A stretch of 64,000 nucleotides of DNA from positions 496,001 to 560,000 of the forward strand of contig NZ_CP061281.1 of the NCBI RefSeq assembly GCF_014621695.1, read 5' to 3'. Both the position numbers and the translations under genes were made by a program. Under the pieces are notes generated by a model, which saw only the letters and a program-made list of their open reading frames with translations, was not told the DNA's origin and made no database searches. Below are positions 6,554-18,083 of the stretch, one piece after another. Every line of letters starts with the position of its first letter. Within the stretch, counting starts at the first letter, position 1. This DNA is from Streptomyces xanthii (GTDB lineage Bacteria > Actinomycetota > Actinomycetes > Streptomycetales > Streptomycetaceae).

Positions 6554-7339
6554 ATGACGGCACCGTCTTCGCCGAGCCGTATCGACACGAGCAAGCCCCA
6601 CCCGGCCCGTGTCTACGACTGGCTCCTGGGCGGCAAGGACAACTACCCGGTCGACCAGGAAGTGGCGGAGAAGCTGCCCGCCGAGGCGCGGAACAACGCG
6701 ATGCGCAACCGCGCCTTCATGCACCGCGCCGCCGCGTGGCTCGCGCAGAGCGGCATCGACCAGTTCCTCGACATCGGCACCGGCATCCCGACGAAGCCGA
6801 ACCTGCACCAGATCGTGCAGAAGATCGTGCCGTCGGCCCGGGTCGCGTACACGGACAACGACCCGATCGTGCTGCGGCACGCGGAGGCGCTCCTCGTGAG
6901 CAGCGCGGAGGGGGCCACGGACTACATCGAGGCCGACGTCCGTGACCCGCGGGGCATCCTCGACCACGCCCGTACTTTCCTCGACTTCGAGCGGCCGATC
7001 GCCCTGTCGATGATCGCGCTGATGCACTTCATCACGGACGACGAGGACCCGTACGGCCTGACGCGCACGCTCGTCGACGCCCTCCCCTCCGGCAGCTACC
7101 TGGTCCTCTCCCACGGCACCACCGACGAGCACCCGCACCTGGCGAGTTCGGTGAAGAACACGTACCGCAAGGGCGAGATCCCACTGCGGATGCGCACCCG
7201 CGCCGAGGTCGAGCCGTTCTTCGAGGGCCTGGAGCTGGTCGAGCCCGGACTGGTGACCGCGACGAAGTGGTACCGGTCCGAGCCCGCGCCGGCCGAGGAG
7301 CTGAGCGGTTTCTACGTGGGCGTGGCGCGCGTTCCGTAG
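6554..7339 (+). CDS. SAM-dependent methyltransferase, DUF574 type
   Basis: A 261-aa cytosolic protein of the large Streptomyces DUF574 (Methyltransf_19) family. Visible hallmarks are the N-terminal RVYDWLLGGKDNYPVD, the SAM-binding motif LDIGTGIPT near residue 73, and the D-N-D-P-I acidic loop (YTDNDPIVLRHAEALL). These proteins are numerous in streptomycetes and mostly of unknown substrate; many genes lie beside regulators or sensor kinases, which is not the case here. ATG 6554 has a weak GGAG about 7 nt upstream. The 3' end overlaps the convergent acetoacetyl-CoA synthetase gene by 28 bp. Confidence 0.9.
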   Translation: MTAPSSPSRIDTSKPHPARVYDWLLGGKDNYPVDQEVAEKLPAEARNNAMRNRAFMHRAAAWLAQSGIDQFLDIGTGIPTKPNLHQIVQKIVPSARVAYTDNDPIVLRHAEALLVSSAEGATDYIEADVRDPRGILDHARTFLDFERPIALSMIALMHFITDDEDPYGLTRTLVDALPSGSYLVLSHGTTDEHPHLASSVKNTYRKGEIPLRMRTRAEVEPFFEGLELVEPGLVTATKWYRSEPAPAEELSGFYVGVARVP

Positions 7340-9279
7340 CCGGACCTCGCGGCGAACTCCGCGAACCAGGGCAGCAGGTCGGGGCGGGTCACCGTACCCT
7401 CGGCGACGACGTCGGCGGCGCGGGCGCCCTGGAGGATGCGTTTGACGGGCACCTCCAGTTTCTTGCCGGTGAGGGTGCGGGGCACGGCCTCGACGGGGAC
7501 GATCACGTCGGGGACGTGCCGCGGTGAGAGGTGTCGGCGGATCGCGGCGACGATCTCGTCGCGGAGGTCGTCGTCGAAGGACTCGCCGGGCGCGGGCACG
7601 ACGAACAGGGGCATCGCGTAGCCCCCGCCCGGGAGTTCGGCGCCGATGACGAGGCTGTCGGCGACGCGCGGCAGCCGTTCGACGACGGCGTACAGGTCGG
7701 CGGAGCCCATGCGCACGCCCATGCGGTTGAGGGTGGCGTCGGAGCGTCCGGCGACCTCGACGGACAGGTCGGGGTGCAGGGTGATCCAGTCGCCGTGCCG
7801 CCAGACGCCCGGGTACACGTCGAAGTACCCGGCCCGGTAGCGGCGGTGGTCGGTGTCGCCGAGGAAGTGGAGCGGCATCGAGGGCAGCGGGGCGGTGACG
7901 ACGAGTTCGCCCTGCTCCCCCACGACCGGCCTGCCGTCCGGGTCCCAGGCGTCGAGGGCGACGCCGAGGGCCGGTCCGGAGAGCCGCCCGGTGTGTTCGG
8001 GCAGCAGGGCCGAGTCGCCGGCGAGGACGGAGCAGATGTCGGTGCCGCCGCAGATCGACTGGAGCCGGGCGCCGGGCGCGAGCCTGTCGCGGACCCAGTG
8101 CCAGGTGCTGTCGGGCATGGCCGAGCCGGTCTGCAGGACGGTGCGCAGGGCGCCGAGGCCGAGGTCGCAGGCCGGGTGGGCGCCCGCCTTCTCGCCCGCG
8201 GTGAGATAGGCGGCCCCGACGCCGACGACGGTGGCGCCGGTGCGTTCGGCGATGCGCCAGACCCCGTCGACGTCGGGGTGGGTGGGGCTGCCGTCGTAGA
8301 GGACGATCGTGCTGCCGTGGAGGAGTCCGGCGACCATGAAGTTCCAGACCATCCAGCTGGTGGAGGTGTGGAAGAGGTAGCGGTCGTCGGGGCGCAGGCC
8401 GACGCCGAGGCCGAGCGCCTTGAGCAGTTCGACGACGATGCCGCCGTGGCCGTGGACGATGCCTTTGGGGACGCCGGTGGTGCCGGAGGACCACAGGATC
8501 CACAGCGGGTGGTCGAAGGGGACGTCGGCGAAGACGAGCGGGGCGTCGCGGCCGGCGAGGGCGGGCCAGGGGTGCTGGGTCACGTCCTTCCGGTCCGACC
8601 AGGCCGGTCCGGCCGCGGACCTGTGGAGGCGGTCGACGGCGACCAGATGGCGGACCGTGGGCAGTCCCGCGAGGAGTTCGGCGGTCTGGGGCCGCCGGTC
8701 GTACTCCTTGCCGCCGTGGCGGTAGCCGTCGGCGGAGAACAGCACCTTCGGTGCGGCCTGGCGCAATCGGTCGAGGACGCCTGCGGTGCCGAAGTCCGGG
8801 GAGCAGACGGTCCAGGTGGCGCCGACGGCGGCGGTGGCGAGGAGCGCGACGACGGCGTGCGGCACGTTCGGCAGGTAGCCGGCGACGCAATCGCCGGGTC
8901 CGACGCCGAGGTCGCGCAGTCCGGCGGCGACGCCCGCGACCTCGGCGCGCAGCCGCTCCCAGGAGAGGTGTTCGGGCGCGCCGGTCTCGGAGACGGCGAT
9001 GACGGCGGGCCGGGTGGCGTCGGAGCGGGTCAGGCACTGCCGGGCGAAGTTGAGGTGGGCGCCGGTGAACCAGGACGCGCCGGGCATCGTCGCGTCCGCG
9101 AGCACCTCCTCGTAGGGGCTGACGCGGTCCAGGCCGTAGTACTCCCACACGGCGGACCAGAAGGCGGGCAGGTCGTCGGTGCTCCAGCGCCACAGGGCGG
9201 CGTAGTCGGCGTGGGCGAGCCCGCGTTCGCGGCGCAGCCAGGCCTGGAAGTCGGCGATGTTGGAGTCCGCCGCGGTCAC
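7312..9279 (-). CDS. Acetoacetate--CoA ligase (acetoacetyl-CoA synthetase)
   Basis: A 655-aa AMP-forming acyl-CoA synthetase of the AACS subfamily, which makes acetoacetyl-CoA from acetoacetate, ATP and CoA. The P-loop WSSGTTGVPKGIVHGHGG lies near residues 265-282, a long ACS-type N-terminus is present (MPGASWFTGAHLNFARQCL), and the C-terminal LTGKKLEVPVKRIL contains the acylation Lys. GTG 9279 overlaps the stop of the upstream hydrolase gene (GTGA) and has GGGAGG 7 nt upstream, so it is translationally coupled. It is last in the operon that starts with BKACE at 14096, whose reaction yields acetoacetate, giving a direct metabolic link. The 3' end overlaps the convergent methyltransferase gene. 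Confidence 0.92.
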   Translation of the reverse strand: MTAADSNIADFQAWLRRERGLAHADYAALWRWSTDDLPAFWSAVWEYYGLDRVSPYEEVLADATMPGASWFTGAHLNFARQCLTRSDATRPAVIAVSETGAPEHLSWERLRAEVAGVAAGLRDLGVGPGDCVAGYLPNVPHAVVALLATAAVGATWTVCSPDFGTAGVLDRLRQAAPKVLFSADGYRHGGKEYDRRPQTAELLAGLPTVRHLVAVDRLHRSAAGPAWSDRKDVTQHPWPALAGRDAPLVFADVPFDHPLWILWSSGTTGVPKGIVHGHGGIVVELLKALGLGVGLRPDDRYLFHTSTSWMVWNFMVAGLLHGSTIVLYDGSPTHPDVDGVWRIAERTGATVVGVGAAYLTAGEKAGAHPACDLGLGALRTVLQTGSAMPDSTWHWVRDRLAPGARLQSICGGTDICSVLAGDSALLPEHTGRLSGPALGVALDAWDPDGRPVVGEQGELVVTAPLPSMPLHFLGDTDHRRYRAGYFDVYPGVWRHGDWITLHPDLSVEVAGRSDATLNRMGVRMGSADLYAVVERLPRVADSLVIGAELPGGGYAMPLFVVPAPGESFDDDLRDEIVAAIRRHLSPRHVPDVIVPVEAVPRTLTGKKLEVPVKRILQGARAADVVAEGTVTRPDLLPWFAEFAARSGYGTRATPT

Positions 9280-9878
9280 TTCACCGCCTCCCGTCCGGTG
9301 GGGACGGGACAGCCGAGCTCTTCGAGGAGCCGCGCGGCCTGCGGCCATTCTCCGTGGCCCGAGGCGGGGTTGAGGTGGCCGACGGGGCCGATGCCGACGA
9401 GGCGGCCGCCCCAGTCGGCGGCCAGGGCGGCGACCTTCTCGGGGCGGGCCAGGGGGTCGTTCGTGCTGGCGGCGACGATGACGGGGAAGGGCAGCCGGGC
9501 GCGGGCGACGGGCAGCCAGCCGTGGGCGCGCAGGGTCTCCGGGTCGGGGTGGCCTTCGGGCAGCGGGGTGTCGAAGTCGGGCGGGGTGGCGAGCAGGGCG
9601 CCGAGGACCGGGCGGTCGTCGTGGGTGAGGGCCCAGTGGACGGTGGTGTGGACGCCGGCGCTGTGGGCCACGAGGACGACGGGCCCGGCGACCGAGGTCA
9701 CCGCCGCGTCGAGGGCGGCGACCTGGGCGGCGCGGCTGAGCCGTGCCTCGGTGAGCGGCGGGACGGTCACCGATCCGGGGATGCGGGCGGCGAGGCGGGT
9801 CTGCCAGTGGTCGGGGACGTGGTCGCGCAGTCCGGGGACGAACACGACCGTGGGAGCGGTTGTCGGATCGGGGGTCAT
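9276..9878 (-). CDS. Alpha/beta hydrolase, RBBP9/YdeN type
   Basis: A 200-aa serine hydrolase. The N-terminal strand VVFVPGLRDHVPDHWQ and the nucleophile elbow AHSAG (Ser near residue 68) fit the small RBBP9/YdeN group. The likely acid (NDPLARPEK) and catalytic His (VGHLNPASGHGEWP) are present near the C-terminus. The start ATG at 9878 overlaps the MFS stop (ATGA), and its own stop overlaps the ligase start, so it is coupled on both sides. In this operon it could cleave an ester or CoA thioester intermediate; the substrate is unknown. Confidence 0.85.
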   Translation of the reverse strand: MTPDPTTAPTVVFVPGLRDHVPDHWQTRLAARIPGSVTVPPLTEARLSRAAQVAALDAAVTSVAGPVVLVAHSAGVHTTVHWALTHDDRPVLGALLATPPDFDTPLPEGHPDPETLRAHGWLPVARARLPFPVIVAASTNDPLARPEKVAALAADWGGRLVGIGPVGHLNPASGHGEWPQAARLLEELGCPVPTGREAVK

Positions 9879-11164
9879 GTGGGGAGCTCCGTCTTCGTAC
9901 GGGGTGCGGCCGGGGCGGCCGGGAGGAGGTCCGCGGCGTAGTGGCGGCGGCCGAGGGCGAAGGCCAGGGCGGCGCCCAGGGAGACGAACGGGATGACGCC
10001 GAGTGCGGCGTGCAGTCCGATGTGGTCGGCGAGCATGCCGGTGACGGCGGGTCCGGGCGCGAGGCCGATCAGGCTGTTGGCCAGGGTGAGGGTCGCCATC
10101 GAGGTGGCGACGACGGCCGGCGGGGTCAGGCTCACCACCATGGCGGCGGCGGGTCCGGCGGTGGCGTTGGAGAGCAGGGTCCCGCCGCCGATGAGCAGCA
10201 ACTGGCCGATCCCTGTGGGGAGTTGGAAGCCGATCCCGAGCAGGACGAGGGATCCGGTGCTGCACAGGACCGCGAGGGTCCACTTGTGCCGGCCGCCCCG
10301 GCGGCCGAGCCGGTCGCTGACCAGGCCGCCGCCGATCATGCCGATCCCGGTGATGAGGGCGAAGATTCCGGCGACGAGTCCGGCCTTGTCGGTGGACAGG
10401 CCGTAGGAGCGGTCGAGGTAGCTGGGCATCCAGGCGAGCAGGGACATGGCCAGGAACATCTGCAGTCCGCTGCCGATGTAGGCGCAGCGTACGGACACGG
10501 AGGAGAAGAGGCGGGGCAGGAGGGACCGGACGGGGCCCTGCGCGCCCGGCGGGTTGCCCTGTTCGCGGCAGGCGCGGGCGAGTCGGCGTTCGGTGACGAC
10601 CACGCTGTAGACGGCGGCGAGCACGAGGCCGAACAGACCCATGATCGCGAACGTCCAGCGCCAGCCGAGGTGTTGGGCGATGACGCCGCCGATGGAGACG
10701 CCGAGGACGGAGCCGAAGGCGCCGCCGGCGATGAAGGCGCCGGACAGCGTGGCCCGCAGGGTCGCGGGGAACACGCTGATCACGACGGCGACACCGACGC
10801 TGCCGTAGGCGGCCTCGCCGACGCCGACCATGAACCGGCCGAGGAACATCTGGCCGTAGCTCGCGGCGACGGCGCAGCCCAGGGTCGCGAGGCTCCACAC
10901 GACGGCGGCGAGGACGAGGCTGCGGACGCGGCCCCAGCGGTCGGCGAGCAGGGACAGGGGGAAGGTGAGCACGCCGACCATGAGGGCGACGATCCCGCTC
11001 AGCGAGCCCAGTTGGGCGTCGGAGAGCATCCACTCGGCCTTCAGCAGCGGGAACACCGCGTTGAGGACCTGCCGCGACATGTAGTCGGAGAGCAGCAGGC
11101 CGAAACTGAGGCCGAACACGACCCACGCGTAGCCGCGGGTCCTCCGCTCACTCGGGCCGGTCAC
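9875..11164 (-). CDS. MFS transporter of the catabolic operon
   Basis: A 429-aa, 12-helix major facilitator protein. The 2-3 loop signature LLADRWGRVRSLVLAA and the later VSDRLGRRGGRHKW loop are both present. GTG 11164 lies within the end of the dioxygenase gene (17-bp overlap); a longer frame upstream to 11257 reads into that gene and is unlikely. The gene order places it as the uptake system for the compound degraded by the operon. It resembles organic anion:proton symporters more than drug exporters, but this is inference. Confidence 0.87.
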   Translation of the reverse strand: MTGPSERRTRGYAWVVFGLSFGLLLSDYMSRQVLNAVFPLLKAEWMLSDAQLGSLSGIVALMVGVLTFPLSLLADRWGRVRSLVLAAVVWSLATLGCAVAASYGQMFLGRFMVGVGEAAYGSVGVAVVISVFPATLRATLSGAFIAGGAFGSVLGVSIGGVIAQHLGWRWTFAIMGLFGLVLAAVYSVVVTERRLARACREQGNPPGAQGPVRSLLPRLFSSVSVRCAYIGSGLQMFLAMSLLAWMPSYLDRSYGLSTDKAGLVAGIFALITGIGMIGGGLVSDRLGRRGGRHKWTLAVLCSTGSLVLLGIGFQLPTGIGQLLLIGGGTLLSNATAGPAAAMVVSLTPPAVVATSMATLTLANSLIGLAPGPAVTGMLADHIGLHAALGVIPFVSLGAALAFALGRRHYAADLLPAAPAAPRTKTELPT

Positions 11165-12029
11165 CGGCGATCCCGGCGCGCTCCATCTTGCGGACGGCGG
11201 GCCAGTAGTCCTGGACCGCGTAGTGCTGGGTGGAGCGGTTGTCCCAGATGGCGACACTGTCGGGCGTCCAGCGCCAGCGGACCTGGTACTCGGGGACGGC
11301 GGCCTGGCTGATCAGGTAGTTCATCAGGAGGTTGGCGCCGGGGGCGTGGTCCTGGCCGAAGCGCACGTTCTCGGGCGTGTGGTGGTTGACGAAGTGGGTG
11401 GTGAAGGCGTTGACGAAGAGGATCTTCTCGCCGGTCTCGGGGTGGGTGCGCACCACCGGGTGTTCGGGGTCCGGATAGCGTTCCTTGAGCCGGTGGCGTT
11501 CCTCCGGCGGCATCACGGCGCCGAAGCTGGCCTCGATGCTGTGGCGGGCGCGCAGGCCGGCGATCTGGGTGCGGATGTGCTCGGGGAGTCGGCGGTAGGC
11601 CTCGGCCATGTCGACCCAGATGGTGTCGCCGCCGACCTCGGGGGTCTCGACGCAGCGCAGGACGGCGCCCATGGGCGGGCGTTCGCGCCAGGTGGCGTCG
11701 CAGTGCAGGGCGTTCTCGTAGTGCTCGGGCTTGCTGTCGAGGTCCTTGTAGATGCGGACGAGTCCCGGGTGGTCGGGGTCGCTGCCGAGGACGGGGTGGT
11801 CCTCCAGCGGGCCGAGACGGGAGGCGAAGGCGACGTGGTCGGCGCGGCTGAGGTTCTGGTCGCGCAGGAAGAGCACCTTGTGGCGGAGCAGGAGCTGCCT
11901 GATCTCGGCGAACAGGGCGTCGTCGTGGACGGCGTCGGCGAGCTGGACGCCGTGCAGTTGGGCGCCGAGGGTGCAGGTCAGGGGCTCCGCGTCGATCCGG
12001 GTGCGGACGGCGGTGGGCGTCTGCGTCAT
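11148..12029 (-). CDS. TauD/TfdA-type Fe(II)/2-oxoglutarate dioxygenase
   Basis: A 293-aa enzyme with an intact facial triad: His109 and Asp111 in the motif LHCDATW, and the distal His269 in NRSTQHYAVQDYW. The 2-oxoglutarate-binding Arg follows near residue 280. It would hydroxylate a small carboxylate, sulfonate or quaternary amine in the cytosol using O2 and 2-oxoglutarate. It sits 11 nt downstream of the quinone oxidoreductase gene and overlaps the MFS start. In this operon it probably performs the first oxidation of the imported substrate. Confidence 0.92.
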   Translation of the reverse strand: MTQTPTAVRTRIDAEPLTCTLGAQLHGVQLADAVHDDALFAEIRQLLLRHKVLFLRDQNLSRADHVAFASRLGPLEDHPVLGSDPDHPGLVRIYKDLDSKPEHYENALHCDATWRERPPMGAVLRCVETPEVGGDTIWVDMAEAYRRLPEHIRTQIAGLRARHSIEASFGAVMPPEERHRLKERYPDPEHPVVRTHPETGEKILFVNAFTTHFVNHHTPENVRFGQDHAPGANLLMNYLISQAAVPEYQVRWRWTPDSVAIWDNRSTQHYAVQDYWPAVRKMERAGIAGDRPE

Positions 12030-12040
12030 GTGCGCGCTCC

Positions 12041-13012
12041 TCAGGGGATCAGGACGGAGGAGCCGGTGGTGAGACCGGACTCCAGGGCGCGGTGGGCGGC
12101 CACCGCGTCCGTCAGTGCGTAGCGCTGGTCGATGCGGATACGAATACGGCCTTCGGTGACGTGGTCGAAGAGTTCACCGGCGAGCGCGTCGCGTTCGGCG
12201 GGGTCCGCGATGTAGTCGGCGAGGGCCGGGCGGGTCACGAACAGGGAGCCGTGGACGGCGAGTTTCATCGCGTCGAGGGGCGGGACGCCGGAGGCGGTGC
12301 CGAAGCAGACGAGGAGTCCGCGGCGGCGCAGCGAGGCCATCGATCCCTCGACGGTGTCCTTGCCGATGCTGTCGAGGACGAGCGTGACGCCCTCGCCGCC
12401 GGTGATCTCCCGCACGCGTTCGGCGACGTCCTCCTTGCGGTACAGGACGGTGTGGTCGCAGCCGTGGGCGCGGGCGAGGGCGGCCTTCTCCTCGGTGGAG
12501 ACGGTGCCGATGACGGTGAGGCCGAGGAGCTTGGCCCACTGGCAGACGATGAGGCCGACGCCGCCGGCCGCGGCGTGCAGCAGGATCGTGTCGCCGGGCT
12601 TCAGGGGGTGGATGCGGCGCAGCAGGTAGGAGGCGGTGAGGCCGCGCATCGTCATCGCGGCGGCGGTCTCGCAGTCGATGCCGTCGGGCAGCTTGATCAG
12701 GGGTCCGGCGTCCATGACGCGGGCGGTGCTGTAGGCGCCGAGCGGGCTGCCGGTGTAGGTGACGCGGTCGCCGGGGCCGAGGTGGGTGACGCCGGGTCCG
12801 ACGGCTTCTACGACGCCGGCGGCCTCGACGCCGAGGCCCGCGGGGAGCGGGGCCGGGTACAGGCCCGTACGGAAGTAGGTGTCGGCGAAGTTGAGGCCGA
12901 CGGCCTCGTGCCGGACGCGGACCTGGCCGGGGCCGGGGTCGCCGACGGTGACGCTCTCGAGGCGCAGGACCTCGGGGCCGCCGGTCTCGTGGAAGCGGAT
13001 GGCGTGGGCCAT
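12041..13012 (-). CDS. Zinc-less NADPH:quinone oxidoreductase (MDR family)
   Basis: A 323-aa medium-chain reductase. The N-terminal GroES-like fold (HEAVGLNFADTYFRTGLYP) and the NADPH-binding Rossmann motif AAAGGVGLIVCQWAKLLG near residue 150 mark the QorA-type group, and no structural zinc cysteines are present. It lies between BKACE and the dioxygenase in a compact operon (25 nt and 11 nt gaps), so it may reduce or oxidise a carbonyl intermediate of that pathway rather than a free quinone. Confidence 0.9.
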   Translation of the reverse strand: MAHAIRFHETGGPEVLRLESVTVGDPGPGQVRVRHEAVGLNFADTYFRTGLYPAPLPAGLGVEAAGVVEAVGPGVTHLGPGDRVTYTGSPLGAYSTARVMDAGPLIKLPDGIDCETAAAMTMRGLTASYLLRRIHPLKPGDTILLHAAAGGVGLIVCQWAKLLGLTVIGTVSTEEKAALARAHGCDHTVLYRKEDVAERVREITGGEGVTLVLDSIGKDTVEGSMASLRRRGLLVCFGTASGVPPLDAMKLAVHGSLFVTRPALADYIADPAERDALAGELFDHVTEGRIRIRIDQRYALTDAVAAHRALESGLTTGSSVLIP

Positions 13013-13037
13013 GAGGGTTCTCCCTGGGTCCGGCGGG

Positions 13038-14096
13038 TCAGCGGGGGGTGTCGCGGAGCATGAAGCCGCGCTGCCCGGGGCGCCGGTTGGGGACCATGCC
13101 GAGCCGGGCGAGGGTCTCGTCGGTGTCCGTGTAGTACTCGCCGATGTGGTAGATCTCCTTGGCCTCGGCGCCGGTGGCGACGTCGCGGCCGAGGGTGTGC
13201 GCGATCTGTGTCATCTGCTCGACCTGGCGCACGGAGCTCATCCGCTCGCCCTTGCGGGCCCACAGGTTGTCCTCGTTGCCGACGCGGACGTGGACGCCGA
13301 GGGCGATCGCGATGGCGTTCATGGGGGCGACGGCGCGCATGGAGGACTCGATGGTGAGGACGGCGCCGTCGGGGACGCGGCGCACGAACTCGATGAGGTC
13401 GGCGGGGTGGCGGCCGGCGAAACCGCCGCCGATCGCCACGTAGTTGAGGACGAGCGGGCCGGTGTACTCGCCGCAGCGGATGAGGCGCTCCACGGTCTCC
13501 AGCTGGGCCAGGGTGGCGAGTTGGAAGTGCGGCTGAATGCCATTGCCCCGCAGCCGCCGCAGGTGTTCGAGGTAGAAGTCGGGGCCCGCCTCGACCACCA
13601 TGTCGCGGTAGGCCTTGTAGTAGTCGGGCTTGGCGATGGAGGTGCCGGCCAGGTCGTCGTCGGTCATGATCTCGACGATGTTCATCTGACTGGTGTTGAT
13701 GGCGATGGTCACCTGGTCGGGGCGCGGGTCGAGATCGGCGAGCAGGTGGCGGGTGTCGTAGCTGAGCCACTTGGCCTCGGAGCCCTCGTCCTCGGGGGCG
13801 AAGGAGATGGATCCGCCGATCTGCAGGACCATGTCGGGCACGGCCTCGCGCAGCCGGCCGATGAGCTCGTTGAACTTGGACATGCGCTTGGAGCCGTGTC
13901 CGTCGAGTTCGCGGACGTGGATGTGGAGCACGGTGGCGCCCGCGTTGTAGCAGTCGACGGCGGCCTGGACGTGCTCGTCCATGGTCAGGGGCAGGTCGTC
14001 GGCGTCGCCGGGCAGCCACTCGGGGCCGTAGGGAGCGGCCTGGATGACCAGCTTCTCCTGGTTCTCGGGCAGCAGGGAGTCGTCGAGGAAGTGCAT
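13038..14096 (-). CDS. BKACE-family beta-keto acid cleavage enzyme (DUF849)
   Basis: A 352-aa TIM-barrel protein of the 3-keto-5-aminohexanoate cleavage (Kce/BKACE) family. Members condense a beta-keto acid with acetyl-CoA, giving acetoacetate and a new acyl-CoA. The zinc ligands are visible: His58 and His60 in LHIHVREL, and the Glu of VRVGNEDNLW near residue 274. It is longer than Kce (about 275 aa), with an extra segment near residues 98-130. ATG 14096 has AGGAG 6 nt upstream. It is the first gene of the operon; the last gene makes acetoacetyl-CoA. The specific keto acid is not predictable, and dehydrocarnitine-like substrates are one possibility. Confidence 0.9.
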   Translation of the reverse strand: MHFLDDSLLPENQEKLVIQAAPYGPEWLPGDADDLPLTMDEHVQAAVDCYNAGATVLHIHVRELDGHGSKRMSKFNELIGRLREAVPDMVLQIGGSISFAPEDEGSEAKWLSYDTRHLLADLDPRPDQVTIAINTSQMNIVEIMTDDDLAGTSIAKPDYYKAYRDMVVEAGPDFYLEHLRRLRGNGIQPHFQLATLAQLETVERLIRCGEYTGPLVLNYVAIGGGFAGRHPADLIEFVRRVPDGAVLTIESSMRAVAPMNAIAIALGVHVRVGNEDNLWARKGERMSSVRQVEQMTQIAHTLGRDVATGAEAKEIYHIGEYYTDTDETLARLGMVPNRRPGQRGFMLRDTPR

Positions 14097-14276
14097 GGCT
14101 GTCTCCTGGAACGGGGCGGCGGGCGGTGGCGCCGGAAACGGTCGCGGCCGGGCCCGACGCGTGGTGGAGGCGGGGACACCGGGTGGTGACTGCTTCGGTG
14201 TCGCTCGCGGTACCGCCACGTTAAGAGCGGGTTACCGGCCGCGCTTCACCCATGGAGACACAAGACTTGCCCGTTC

Positions 14277-14296: not shown

Positions 14297-15319
14297 TCAG
14301 TCGGCGGACGGGTCGGCGCCGGCCGCGTGCCGGGCGCGCCAGTCCCGGGCGCTGGTGCCGAACTGCTCGCGGAACCAGCGGGAGAAGGCGCTCGGCGCGG
14401 AGAAGCCGAGGAGGCCGGAGATCTCGGTGAGCGAGCGGCTCGGGTTGGCGACGAGCTGCTCGGCGAGCTGGGTGCGGGTGGCGTTGACGAGTCCGGAGAA
14501 GGTCTCGCCGGTCGTGGCGAGGTGCCGGTGGACGGTCCTGCGGTCGACGCCGAGGCTGCCCGCCACCTGCTCGACGGAGCAGCGCCCGGTGGGCAGCAGC
14601 ACCTCGATGAGTTCACGGACCCGGTCCAGTTCCGTCGTGTCCGTGGTGACGGCGAGGGACTCGAAGTACTGGCGGGCGTAGTCGCGCAGGAGCGGGTCGG
14701 AGAGCTTGTTCGGGGTGTCGAGCTCGGAGGCGTAGAGGACGATGCCGGTGAACTCCCGGTCGAACTCGACCACGGGGCCCAGGAGTCGGCGATGGGTGGT
14801 GAGGTCCCGGGGTGCGGCGTGGGTGAAGCACACGGAGACGGGCTGCCAGCGCGGGCCGAGGAACTCGCGCAGGAAACCGATGAACGTGCCGACGGCCAGC
14901 TCGACGGCCTGGCGCGACTCGTGGAACTCGCCGAGTTCGAGACCGACCCGCACCGTGGCGAGACCGGCGGCCTCGGTGAGGCGGCTGCGGAGCATCTCGT
15001 TGTACATGCGCTCGTGGCGCACCAGGAGGGCGAGGGCGCTGCGCACGTCGGGTTCCTCGCGCAGAACCAGGCTGATGGGGCCGAGGTTGGCGAAGCGGCG
15101 CCGCTCGGCGAGGAGCAGCCCGAAGTCCTCGCGGCGGGCGGTGGCGGCGGCGAGTTCGAGGAGTCGGGTGACGGCGTCGCCCGACACCCAGCGGTCCTGG
15201 GCGGCGAGGCCCACGGGGTCGAGGCCCACTCTTTTCATGAGGGCGCGCGGGTCGATGCCGACGGACTGGCCGAGCTCGACGTAGCTGCTCAGCGCGGCGT
15301 TGCGGACCAGGGGCTTCAT
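14297..15319 (-). CDS. AraC-family transcriptional regulator
   Basis: A 340-aa regulator with an N-terminal arabinose-binding-like ligand domain (LGQSVGIDPRALMKRVGL onward, residues 10-190) and a C-terminal double HTH. The last 80 residues show the AraC signature (GFSAPSAFSRWFREQFGTSA). It lies between the minus-strand catabolic operon and a divergent dioxygenase/ligase pair, so it probably controls both. A good promoter (15396-15424) precedes a 5' UTR of about 70 nt with a strong hairpin. No clear ribosome site is visible close to ATG 15319. Confidence 0.92.
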   Translation of the reverse strand: MKPLVRNAALSSYVELGQSVGIDPRALMKRVGLDPVGLAAQDRWVSGDAVTRLLELAAATARREDFGLLLAERRRFANLGPISLVLREEPDVRSALALLVRHERMYNEMLRSRLTEAAGLATVRVGLELGEFHESRQAVELAVGTFIGFLREFLGPRWQPVSVCFTHAAPRDLTTHRRLLGPVVEFDREFTGIVLYASELDTPNKLSDPLLRDYARQYFESLAVTTDTTELDRVRELIEVLLPTGRCSVEQVAGSLGVDRRTVHRHLATTGETFSGLVNATRTQLAEQLVANPSRSLTEISGLLGFSAPSAFSRWFREQFGTSARDWRARHAAGADPSAD

Positions 15320-15395: not shown

Positions 15396-15424
15396 CTGAT
15401 AAGTCATCTGCCCCGTGAGGTCAA
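15396..15424 (-). promoter_or_regulatory. Sigma-70-like promoter of the AraC-type gene
   Basis: The minus strand reads TTGACC (15419-15424), a 17-nt spacer, then TATCAG (15396-15401). Transcription would start near 15389. Confidence 0.6.
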
Positions 15425-15486
15425 GCGATGCGACAGACCGTGACCTAGCGTGGCACCACCCCGACGCCCCTCGAAAGGAGCCGGCC

Positions 15487-16509
15487 GTGGGCCCCTCGTC
15501 AGCCGCCGCCCGCGCACTTCCCTGCCACGGCCCCGCAGTGTGGACAGGGTCGGATCTCGCCGCATCCGGAGCCTGGCTGCGCCGCCCGACCCCCGGGCAG
15601 CTCGCCGAGCTCGCCACCGCCGTGCGCACGGTCCGCACCCGGGGCACACCGATGCTCCGGGTGACCGCCGCACAGTTCCCTGCACCTGCCTGGCACACCG
15701 AACTCCAGGCGACAGCCCATGAGTTGACACACAGGTGCGGGGTGGCGGTCGTACGGCGCATCCCCGTGGAGGGCTTCCGTCCGGCCGAGCGGGAGCAGCT
15801 GCTGTGGGGGCTCGGCCGGCATCTCGGCACACCGGTCTCGCAGGACGTGACGGGCCACATGCTGGGCCGCCTGCCCGCGGCCGGTCCGCCCGCCGCCTCC
15901 CCCGGAGCGTTCCGCACCGACGACGCGGACACGACGGCCCTGCTGTGCCTGCGTCCCGCGCGGGCGTCCCTGGTCAGCTCGGCGGCGCTGCACAACGCCG
16001 TGCTCGACCGCGGGCCCGAACTGCTCGACCGTCTCTACCGCACCCATCACCTGGATCGCGGCCCGCGGCTGCCCGCCCTGGCCACGCCCCTCGCCCACCG
16101 CACGGAGCGGCACTTCAGCCTCCGCTACGACCGTCACCGGATCGAGGCGGCGCAGGCCCGGCCCGATGTGCCGCGCCTGACCCACGAGGACATCGCGCTG
16201 TTCGACCTCCTCGACGCGGCCGCCGCGTCCCCGGTCCTCCGCCTGGACCTCGACCTCTCCCCCGGCGACCTCCTCCTGCTCGACAACCACGCGGTGCTGC
16301 ACACGCTCGCCTTCACGCCACCCCGCGCGACCGCGCCCGAGGCCACCGCCGACGCCCTGCGCCTGTGGCTGACGCCACATCAGCCCCGGGACCTGCCCGC
16401 AGAGTTCTGGGGCGACACGGCCCGGGGCCCGCACGGGACGCGCGGCGGCGTCCCGCCCCGTGACGTGATCACCCACCGCTCCCCCTTCCACGCAAAGGAA
16501 CCCGCATGA
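15487..16509 (+). CDS. TauD-like dioxygenase homologue with altered metal site
   Basis: About 340 aa. The segment FRTDDADTTALLCLRPARAS (residues 142-161) aligns with the HxD region of TauD/TfdA-like dioxygenases, but Arg143 (CGC at 15913) replaces the first iron-binding His, while Asp145 is kept. The distal motif NHAVLHTLAF keeps His272 but has Leu where an Arg is usual. So this homologue may have lost Fe(II)/2-oxoglutarate chemistry or changed its role. GTG 15487 is supported by AAAGGAG 6 nt upstream; the in-frame ATG further upstream (15427 region) is not. It is divergent from the AraC-type regulator and overlaps the ligase start by 4 bp. Confidence 0.8.
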   Translation: MGPSSAAARALPCHGPAVWTGSDLAASGAWLRRPTPGQLAELATAVRTVRTRGTPMLRVTAAQFPAPAWHTELQATAHELTHRCGVAVVRRIPVEGFRPAEREQLLWGLGRHLGTPVSQDVTGHMLGRLPAAGPPAASPGAFRTDDADTTALLCLRPARASLVSSAALHNAVLDRGPELLDRLYRTHHLDRGPRLPALATPLAHRTERHFSLRYDRHRIEAAQARPDVPRLTHEDIALFDLLDAAAASPVLRLDLDLSPGDLLLLDNHAVLHTLAFTPPRATAPEATADALRLWLTPHQPRDLPAEFWGDTARGPHGTRGGVPPRDVITHRSPFHAKEPA

Positions 16510-18083
16510 CCGCCCCTGGCCCCTCCGTGCCGAAGCCTCCGAACGTGTCCGCCCTGCCCGCGCTGCTCACCCGGTCCGCCCGCGCGCACGGCGACCGTAC
16601 GGCGGTCCGCGAAGGCACGGCCTCGCTCACGTACGCGCAGCTCGACGACCGGGCGGCACGGTTCGCGGCGCTGCTGCGGTCGCGCGGGCTGCGCCCCGGC
16701 GACCGGGTGGCGGTGGCGCTGCCGAACGTCCTGCGCTTCCCGGTCGTCTACTACGGCACCCTGTACGCCGGGGCCGTGGTGGTGCCGCTGAACCCGCTGC
16801 TCAAGGCGGGCGAGCTGGAGTTCGCGCTGCGGGACAGCGGGGCGCGGCTCCTGGTGGCCGCGCCGGCCGGAGCGGACGAGGCCTCCGCCGCGGCCGCACG
16901 GACCGGCGCCGAGTGCCTGGTCGCGCATCCGCCCGCCTGGGACGGACTGCTGCGCGCGCAGGACCCGTCGGCAGGCGCTGCGGCGGGCGCGGCCGCCGAC
17001 GACACCGCGGTCATCCTCTACACCTCGGGCACCACGGGCACCCCCAAGGGCGCCGAACTGACCCACCGCAATCTGGTCACCAACGCCCTGACGACCGCCC
17101 GCACCCTGCTCCGGCTCACCCCGGACGACGTCCTCTTCGGCGGTCTGCCCCTCTTCCACGCGTTCGGCCAGACCTGCGCCCTGAACGCGGCGACCGCGGC
17201 GGGGGCCGCGCTCTCCCTGCTCCCCCGCTTCCAGCCGGACCGGGCCCTGGAGACGCTGCGGCGCGACGACGTCACCGTCTTCCTCGGCGTCCCCACCATG
17301 TACACGGCGCTGCTGCGCGCGGGGGTCGGCCCGGCCCTGCCCCGGCTGCGGCTCGGCGTCTCGGGCGGCGCCTCGCTCCCCGTGGAGCTGCTGCACGCCG
17401 CCGAGCGCGAGCTCGGGGTCACGGTCCTGGAGGGCTACGGACTGTCGGAGACGTCGCCGGTGGCCTGCTTCAACCCGCCGGACCGGCCGCGCAAGCCGGG
17501 TTCGATCGGCCTGCCGGTCGAGGGCGTCGAGCTGTGTCTGTTCGGCCCCGACGGGCGGCCGACCGGGCCGGGTGAAGTCGGTGAGCTGGCGGTCCGGGGC
17601 GAGAACGTCATGAAGGGGTACTGGCGGCGCCCGGATGCGACCGCCGCCGCGTTCCGGGACGGCTGGTTCCTCACCGGCGACCTGGCCCGCGTCGACGAGG
17701 ACGGCTACCACTTCGTCGTGGACCGCAAGAAGGACCTGATCATCCGCGGCGGCTACAACGTCTACCCGCGCGAGATCGAGGAGGTCCTGTACACCCATCC
17801 CGAGGTGGTGGAGGCCGCTGTCGTGGGGGTGCCGCATCCGGAGCTGGGCGAGGAGGTCGCGGCCGTGGTGACCCTGCGGACGGACTCGGGCCCGGCACCC
17901 GAGGCGCTCGTCTCCTACGTGAAGGAACGGGTCGCCGCGTACAAGTACCCGCGGATCGTGCGCATCGCCGCGACCCTTCCGAAGGGACCGACGGGCAAGA
18001 TCCTCCGGCGGGAGATCGTCGTACAGGACGACGTCTCCCGGACCGGCGCGCCGGTCACCACCCCGTCAGGAGCAGGTGGTTGA
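16506..18083 (+). CDS. Long-chain-type acyl-CoA ligase (AMP-forming)
   Basis: A 525-aa ANL-superfamily enzyme. The P-loop YTSGTTGTPKGAELTH lies near residue 173, the adenine motif GYGLSETSP near 310, the hinge GWFLTGDLARVDEDGY near 385, and the C-terminal PKGPTGKILRRE carries the catalytic Lys. It activates a carboxylic acid as an adenylate and transfers it to CoA. The start overlaps the previous stop (ATGA), so it is coupled to the dioxygenase-like gene. With the AraC-type regulator it probably belongs to the same catabolic programme as the minus-strand operon. Its 3' end overlaps the convergent membrane protein gene by 29 bp. Confidence 0.92.
   Translation: MTAPGPSVPKPPNVSALPALLTRSARAHGDRTAVREGTASLTYAQLDDRAARFAALLRSRGLRPGDRVAVALPNVLRFPVVYYGTLYAGAVVVPLNPLLKAGELEFALRDSGARLLVAAPAGADEASAAAARTGAECLVAHPPAWDGLLRAQDPSAGAAAGAAADDTAVILYTSGTTGTPKGAELTHRNLVTNALTTARTLLRLTPDDVLFGGLPLFHAFGQTCALNAATAAGAALSLLPRFQPDRALETLRRDDVTVFLGVPTMYTALLRAGVGPALPRLRLGVSGGASLPVELLHAAERELGVTVLEGYGLSETSPVACFNPPDRPRKPGSIGLPVEGVELCLFGPDGRPTGPGEVGELAVRGENVMKGYWRRPDATAAAFRDGWFLTGDLARVDEDGYHFVVDRKKDLIIRGGYNVYPREIEEVLYTHPEVVEAAVVGVPHPELGEEVAAVVTLRTDSGPAPEALVSYVKERVAAYKYPRIVRIAATLPKGPTGKILRREIVVQDDVSRTGAPVTTPSGAGG

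Follow-up and report, generated by a model that had tools for sequence, protein, structure and literature searches.

A conserved AraC-linked operon of Streptomyces xanthii as a candidate pathway for a small organic acid, with possible capture of acetoacetate

Three described systems are among the closest to the operon studied here, a run of six genes on the minus strand of a 64,000-nt stretch of Streptomyces xanthii DNA (contig NZ_CP061281.1, positions 496,001 to 560,000; genome size 8.35 Mb), hereafter called the window. All three involve the DUF849 family of beta-keto acid cleavage enzymes (BKACE), and one also involves the dioxygenase BBOX, which we take to be a member of the TauD superfamily. 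In the carnitine/gamma-butyrobetaine island of SAR11, the available account places BBOX and a DUF849/BKACE protein in one cluster, with acetoacetate as the expected product (PMC12421898). The anaerobic phloroglucinol cluster of Clostridium scatologenes is described as combining C-C cleavage by a DUF849-family enzyme with an acetoacetate CoA-transferase (PMC10470551), and the deoxyribonate pathway is reported to unite a major facilitator superfamily (MFS) transporter, an oxidoreductase and a BKACE in one operon, the acetoacetate formed needing activation (PMC6365646). The S. xanthii operon brings together a DUF849 protein, a TauD-type dioxygenase (TauD1), a medium-chain dehydrogenase/reductase (MDR), an MFS transporter, a hydrolase and an acetoacetyl-CoA synthetase (AACS), next to an AraC-type regulator gene. 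We favour, at somewhat less than even confidence, the reading that this is an AraC-linked catabolic operon for a small organic acid, in which oxidation by TauD1 is followed by cleavage by the DUF849 protein and by capture of acetoacetate. The operon and its regulator gene are composed as follows.

13038..14096, minus strand: DUF849/BKACE-family TIM-barrel protein of 352 amino acids, Q192 variant (PF05853 profile match)
12041..13012, minus strand: MDR protein of the NADPH:quinone oxidoreductase subfamily (NF008024, 361.5 bits, cut-off 348)
11148..12029, minus strand: TauD-type Fe(II)/2-oxoglutarate dioxygenase, TauD1 (PF02668, 215.2 bits)
9875..11164, minus strand: MFS transporter, probable substrate importer (PF07690, 146.3 bits)
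9276..9878, minus strand: PF06821 serine hydrolase, candidate esterase, thioesterase or C-C hydrolase (128.9 bits)
7312..9279, minus strand: acetoacetate--CoA ligase, AACS (TIGR01217, 744.9 bits, cut-off 520.9)
14297..15319, minus strand: AraC-family regulator (PF12625 and HTH_18), upstream of the operon on the same strand

An earlier reading of the letters by themselves (the sequence-only reading) had proposed these six genes, with gaps of at most 25 nt or overlaps between them, and a neighbouring AraC regulator; profile matches and the junctions bear out the genes at 7312-14096, and the regulator gene is kept in most related loci. The packing is tight: the DUF849 and MDR genes are 25 nt apart and the MDR and TauD1 genes 11 nt, TauD1 and MFS overlap by about 17 nt given the likely MFS start at GTG 11164, and overlaps of 4 nt join MFS to hydrolase (ATGA) and hydrolase to AACS (GTGA). 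The six genes thus likely form one transcription unit. The MFS open frame extends to 11257, its start at 11164 being chosen from the overlap with the TauD1 stop. For AACS, a start at GTG 9279 is more likely than one at ATG 9348 because the latter falls within the hydrolase gene, although the profile score was taken on the longer frame reaching 9348. The hydrolase carries a VAHSAG motif and matches 3bdv distantly.

In the pathway that we propose, the MFS protein would import a small organic acid, which TauD1 would oxidise, and perhaps desulfonate, to a 1,3-dicarbonyl, for example a beta-keto acid; in several lineages this step would free a sulfur oxyanion for removal by a PF03601 exporter. The Q192-type DUF849 enzyme would then split a C-C bond of the dicarbonyl to give acetoacetate or another short 3-oxoacid. 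Acetoacetate would be converted to its CoA ester by AACS in streptomycetes or, where the Nocardia group is concerned, by a 3-oxoacid CoA-transferase, and the hydrolase, the MDR protein and a FadD-type ligase would handle the leftover fragment. This reading gains support from the precedents above, since they couple a BKACE with a dioxygenase of the TauD superfamily (PMC12421898) and with acetoacetate activation (PMC10470551), as far as these accounts describe them.

The gene set proved to be widely conserved. Genome contigs were scanned with the DUF849 protein, and the best 80 of 239 relatives (L003-L082; 54 streptomycete and 26 other loci, with near relatives over-represented) were taken as loci to which the window genes were mapped by tblastn and counted at fixed thresholds. 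MDR, TauD1, MFS and hydrolase genes all accompany the DUF849 gene in 76/80 loci, and the full core including AraC is found in 75/80 (51/54 streptomycete and 24/26 other loci), so that the grouping is not due to chance. The exceptions to the full core are two loci in which two partners were absent at the thresholds (L057 and L066) and three streptomycete loci cut by contig ends (L009, L012 and L022), which account for every incomplete streptomycete locus. A relative of the AraC gene was found in 53/54 streptomycete and all 26 other loci. Carriers outside the streptomycetes include Nocardia, Rhodococcus, Catellatospora, Nocardioides, Geodermatophilus and a betaproteobacterial metagenome-assembled genome. 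On plasmids, for which 14 loci were examined of 24 records with a DUF849 match, MDR, TauD1, MFS and hydrolase accompany the DUF849 gene in 9/14 loci, among them those of Azoarcus (where a LuxR-type gene is present and AraC gave no match), Novosphingobium, Caballeronia and Tsukamurella. The DUF849 gene comes first in streptomycetes, and elsewhere the order is MDR-TauD-DUF849 with AraC mostly divergent; what is conserved is therefore the gene set rather than its order. When Streptomyces genomes were drawn evenly, 28/295 contained the DUF849 protein (E <= 1e-100, the window's included), and the operon is thus a sporadic, accessory trait in this genus. Twenty-five of these 28 loci carry MDR, TauD1, MFS and hydrolase (counting L148, whose DUF849 match contains one in-frame TGA), and 24 also carry AraC; of the remainder, L143 is truncated where its contig stops, and most core genes are missing from L161 and L162. 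A propionyl-CoA product, suggested by prpBC-acnD-prpF beside the operon of Caballeronia grimmiae, was an idea from that single locus and was not used.

The nature of the product is best judged from the enzymes that different lineages have attached to the core. AACS was found in 30/50 streptomycete loci with room for it, compared with 1/21 other loci with room (1/26 of all non-streptomycete loci). Both subunits of 3-oxoacid CoA-transferase were mapped, after the hydrolase, in 9/21 other loci, and the pair at L076 matches TIGR02429/TIGR02428; a Streptomyces with Nocardia-type gene order (L163) also carries the transferase. In whole-genome searches for TIGR02428 and PF03601 in 20 of the 26 non-streptomycete genomes, chosen after the gene maps were known, the transferase was observed at 8/20 loci against 0.135 expected by chance, a Poisson estimate based on 41 transferase genes (rows with E <= 1e-50, counted by hand) and, like the one for PF03601 below, on an assumption of independent loci that related genomes do not satisfy. 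The six genomes left out (L060, L062, L064, L065, L072 and L073) include one with PF03601 and two with the transferase at the locus. The operon AACS proteins of streptomycetes are 67-100% identical to that of the window, whereas those of Rhodococcus tukisamuensis (L070) share 45-50% identity with 50 streptomycete-type AACS and are similarly distant (49-51%) from the other AACS of the window's genome; being no closer to the operon AACS than to that other copy, the Rhodococcus AACS was attached separately. Streptomycetes, R. tukisamuensis and the Nocardia group have each recruited a different activating enzyme, so the operon product is probably acetoacetate or another 3-oxoacid, and this convergence is the best evidence for acetoacetate or a close 3-oxoacid. 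R. tukisamuensis also has an extra hydrolase-AACS-ligase set upstream of its complete operon. A second AACS (53-55% identical) and CoA-transferase-family genes lie elsewhere in the genome of the window, which suggests that the operon AACS is an additional, dedicated one. Of two further transferase matches, the one counted at L044 (Streptomyces sp. B-S-A6) is 79% identical to a chromosomal copy in the window's genome and may be an ordinary neighbour, and that of Rhodococcus gordoniae (L088), outside the 80-locus count, spans 127 residues only.

AACS itself is facultative and does not belong to the core. The sequence-only reading had seen in the six genes a complete route of uptake, oxidation, cleavage and salvage, and had staked this on AACS and the dioxygenase being kept in orthologous operons. 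A conserved catabolic unit does emerge, with candidates for uptake, oxidation and C-C cleavage and with a probable 3-oxoacid product, and the dioxygenase is present in 26/26 non-streptomycete loci; AACS, by contrast, is missing from 25/26. It is very improbable that the pathway takes exactly the form first proposed, with AACS as an integral part and a carnitine-like substrate. Its gene content is as described and AACS occurs in 18/25 of the even-draw operons with MDR, TauD1, MFS and hydrolase (one has the transferase, six have neither), yet AACS is found in only 1/26 loci outside streptomycetes and the same genome contains a separate carnitine-type cluster. This cluster, at about 741 kb on the contig and about 230 kb from the operon, encodes a Glu-type DUF849 protein followed by a carnitine-dehydrogenase-like protein, which scores below its cut-off (384.4 versus 414 bits), and a 4HBT_2 thioesterase (PF13279). 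Because the genome has this cluster of its own, carnitine is unlikely to be what the operon degrades; as the leading substrate it was rejected, the operon having neither the dehydrogenase nor the hot-dog thioesterase.

TauD1 and the genes found beside sister operons may point towards sulfur. Among solved structures TauD1 scores highest with 5vn6 (457.6 bits), which is deposited as taurine dioxygenase and for which we know of no assay, followed by E. coli TauD (1gqw, 180.5 bits) and then by PlaO1 and alkylsulfatases; its best-scoring characterised solved relative is thus a taurine dioxygenase. It falls below the cut-off of the taurine dioxygenase model PRK09553 (235.2 versus 313 bits). The HxD motif (H109, D111), the distal H269 and Arg280/284 are retained, of which H109, D111 and H269 are presumably the iron triad and R280 the 2-oxoglutarate-binding Arg. 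PF03601, a putative sulfate exporter family, was found at 14/26 non-streptomycete loci, and in the 20 whole genomes, which hold 36 PF03601 genes, it was observed at 13 loci against 0.108 expected. A tree that holds 16 PF03601 copies from operons and 19 from elsewhere requires the operon label to change seven times, and well supported branches force six of these changes; the link between PF03601 and the operon was therefore made or broken repeatedly and not inherited once. We take the exporters TauZ and Pse to be PF03601 proteins. Both are said to export sulfate when taurine and other organosulfur compounds are metabolised (PMC5320631, PMC5373536, as far as these accounts could be consulted). 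The PF03601 link is suggestive: it would suit a TauD1 that releases sulfite or sulfate, without proving this, and the presence of PF03601 in sister operons perhaps points to a sulfur-containing substrate. A more specific version of our reading would be an aerobic organosulfur pathway not described before, in which TauD1 acts oxygenolytically at the beta carbon of a carboxylate, frees sulfite (or sulfate) and so directly yields a 1,3-dicarbonyl that the Gln-type DUF849 enzyme cuts to acetoacetate, captured within the operon; in this full form we consider it unlikely.

A weak hint that the product of TauD1 needs C-C cleavage comes from plasmids, where four stretches were examined of 31 records with a TauD1 match. 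The TauD1 relatives without a DUF849 gene are 56-63% identical to TauD1, and two of them adjoin a 2,4'-dihydroxyacetophenone dioxygenase-type cupin, with no DUF849 gene within the stretch examined; the hint arises because these relatives pair with a cupin from another C-C cleaving family.

The same steps may be arranged without sulfur, in the manner of gamma-butyrobetaine and carnitine: TauD1 would hydroxylate C3, an unlinked or MDR-type dehydrogenase would give the beta-keto acid, the DUF849 protein would cleave it with acetyl-CoA, the hydrolase would act as a thioesterase, and PF03601 would be incidental or export something else. The SAR11 island, for which BBOX, carnitine dehydrogenase, BKACE and an acyl-CoA thioesterase are described (PMC12421898), is a model for this arrangement, and Glu26 of the DUF849 protein, aligned to the residue that binds the amine in Kce (Glu14), is conserved in 23/23 rows of one alignment. 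However, three relatives at a greater distance (L086, L087 and L089) no longer have Glu26, the core has no gene of the alcohol-dehydrogenase type, and both the kinship of TauD1 with taurine dioxygenase and the frequency of PF03601 (13/20 loci against 0.11 expected) argue the other way. We hold this non-sulfur route to be improbable.

Several observations weigh against the reading of TauD1 oxidation followed by DUF849 cleavage, and the first lies in the DUF849 protein itself. Its predicted structure, used for the fold only (mean pLDDT, a per-residue model confidence, 71.9), is an eight-stranded barrel nearest to Kce, and in all 96 family proteins compared, the window's included, the Zn ligands H58, H60 and E275 as well as R271 and D276 are invariant. 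The position of the catalytic Glu is, however, Q192 in the window, with Gln in 95/96 proteins and Val in 1/96; by alignment (HMMER in two cases, MAFFT in one) it corresponds to E171 of BKACE15 and to what we take to be E143 in the numbering of Kce. In BKACE15, a change of this Glu to Leu is reported to abolish activity and one to Asp to leave 5% (PMC11961710). Since the essential Glu is Gln in nearly the whole subfamily, BKACE chemistry cannot follow from the family name, as the sequence-only reading had assumed; for the Q192 protein it is plausible from the context and not established from sequence. Our literature search found no reported activity for the Gln-type subfamily. Malonate semialdehyde, a substrate idea from the BKACE15 work, was set aside, as no link to the Gln-type subfamily was found.

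The residue change also opens another route, in which TauD1 alone would make the 3-oxoacid (for instance acetoacetate from a 3-substituted butyrate) for capture by AACS or transferase, and the DUF849 protein would act at an earlier step, as a lyase, hydrolase or isomerase. Besides the Gln and the essential role of E171 reported for BKACE15 (PMC11961710), this would agree with the reported inactivity of DUF849 group G7 (139/725 proteins) on all substrates tested, in a survey that also reports decarboxylation for group G6 and in whose scheme we leave the Q192 subfamily unassigned (PMC4922564). It would agree, too, with cis-epoxysuccinate hydrolase, which shares the fold yet is no BKACE, and with Diaphorobacter, where a Gln-type and a canonical Glu-type DUF849 gene stand in one run with three genes between them and the Glu-type protein matches the 3,5-dioxohexanoate cleavage model (547.4 bits, cut-off 430). 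On the other hand, the invariant Zn ligands, Arg271 and Asp276 and the predicted fold nearest to Kce speak against this route, and Gln is not among the BKACE15 substitutions given in the portion of PMC11961710 available to us. We rate this route as rather unlikely. The three genes between the two DUF849 genes, on a plasmid of Diaphorobacter sp. HDW4B (L087 9001-13446, L167), encode a tripartite-transporter binding protein, a carboxymuconolactone-decarboxylase-like protein and a short-chain dehydrogenase/reductase, and MDR, TauD1, hydrolase, DsbA-like, Rieske and ligase genes lie about 4-13 kb from that run. Carboxymuconolactone-decarboxylase-like genes also occur near Gln-type DUF849 genes at L070, L079, L088, L091, L161 and L163 as well as at L087, and near the Val-type gene at L086.

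The remaining points against cleavage and capture as we favour them concern the other partners. AACS and transferase are both missing from 19/50 streptomycete and 11/21 other loci with room. PF03601 is found at only 5/54 streptomycete loci, there is none beside the window's operon (the genome's single copy is about 3.8 Mb off), and one operon PF03601 protein scored 151.1 against the YeiH exporter model with its cut-off of 232.6. Ligands of the His70/Arg270 type, which bind sulfonate in TauD, were dropped as proof of a sulfonate since they also align in PlaO1, to our knowledge no sulfonate enzyme. A TauD1 relative in Rhodococcus opacus (L164) has neither a DUF849 gene nor the cupin nearby. The MDR protein, with 9kuj, 1qor and 1wly (2-haloacrylate reductase) as near solved relatives and Cys only at 114, 157, 185 and 236, appears to be zinc-less and is not of the alcohol-dehydrogenase type, which leaves its step unexplained. 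Finally, 5/14 plasmid loci lack parts of the core: L083 has TauD1 only, L090 is without MFS, and L086, L087 and L093 have neither TauD1 nor MDR beside the DUF849 gene.

Three further features lie upstream of the operon.

14205..14270, minus strand: conserved non-coding block, candidate operator or promoter (alignment of seven streptomycete upstream regions)
15415..16509, plus strand: second TauD/TfdA-family protein, TauD2, divergent (PF02668, 59.9 bits)
16506..18083, plus strand: acyl-CoA ligase of FadD type, divergent, likely accessory (PF00501, 336.1 bits)

The block comprises about 65 nt of the 200-nt spacer between AraC and DUF849 and is better conserved than the remainder in the seven streptomycetes (window included), which makes it a candidate site for the AraC regulator. 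TauD2 was found in 29/50 streptomycete loci. Here it has Arg in place of the first iron-ligand His, which is His in 26/29 and Arg in 3/29 of the aligned streptomycete relatives, and in the S. xanthii strain it may no longer bind iron. The FadD-type ligase is near the operon in 40/50 streptomycete and 9/21 other loci.

Among the matches listed in a search of titles and abstracts of the open-access literature, we found no description of this operon as a pathway. Its gene set crosses phyla and occurs on chromosomes and plasmids, and it gives an entry point to a DUF849 subfamily with an intact metal site but no catalytic glutamate. This subfamily is now linked both to acetoacetate and, more surprisingly, to putative sulfate exporters, and the search for the substrate therefore narrows to acids that TauD chemistry converts to 1,3-dicarbonyls.

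Compared with the described systems, the S. xanthii operon shows the following differences. The SAR11 island is described with a carnitine dehydrogenase and a thioesterase (PMC12421898), whereas the operon has neither carnitine dehydrogenase nor hot-dog thioesterase, its TauD1 resembles taurine dioxygenase and its DUF849 protein is without the catalytic Glu. The phloroglucinol cluster is reductive and anaerobic, uses a canonical triacetate acetoacetate-lyase and a transferase instead of AACS, and has no dioxygenase among the steps described (PMC10470551). In the deoxyribonate pathway the activation genes are reported to lie elsewhere (redundant in P. simiae), and a short-chain dehydrogenase takes the place of TauD (PMC6365646). 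TauD and the alkylsulfatases AtsK/Rv3406 are among the best-scoring characterised relatives of TauD1, which keeps their iron ligands, but TauD1 remains under the NCBIfam cut-off for taurine dioxygenase and the transporter of the operon is an MFS protein. With the sulfonate metabolism in which TauZ and Pse are described (PMC5320631, PMC5373536), many sister operons share an oxygenase-type gene and a putative sulfate exporter, although the exporter is not beside the S. xanthii operon. By this comparison, the principle of joining a BKACE to the capture of acetoacetate is already known, and the gene combination found here is best seen as a variant of a known logic.

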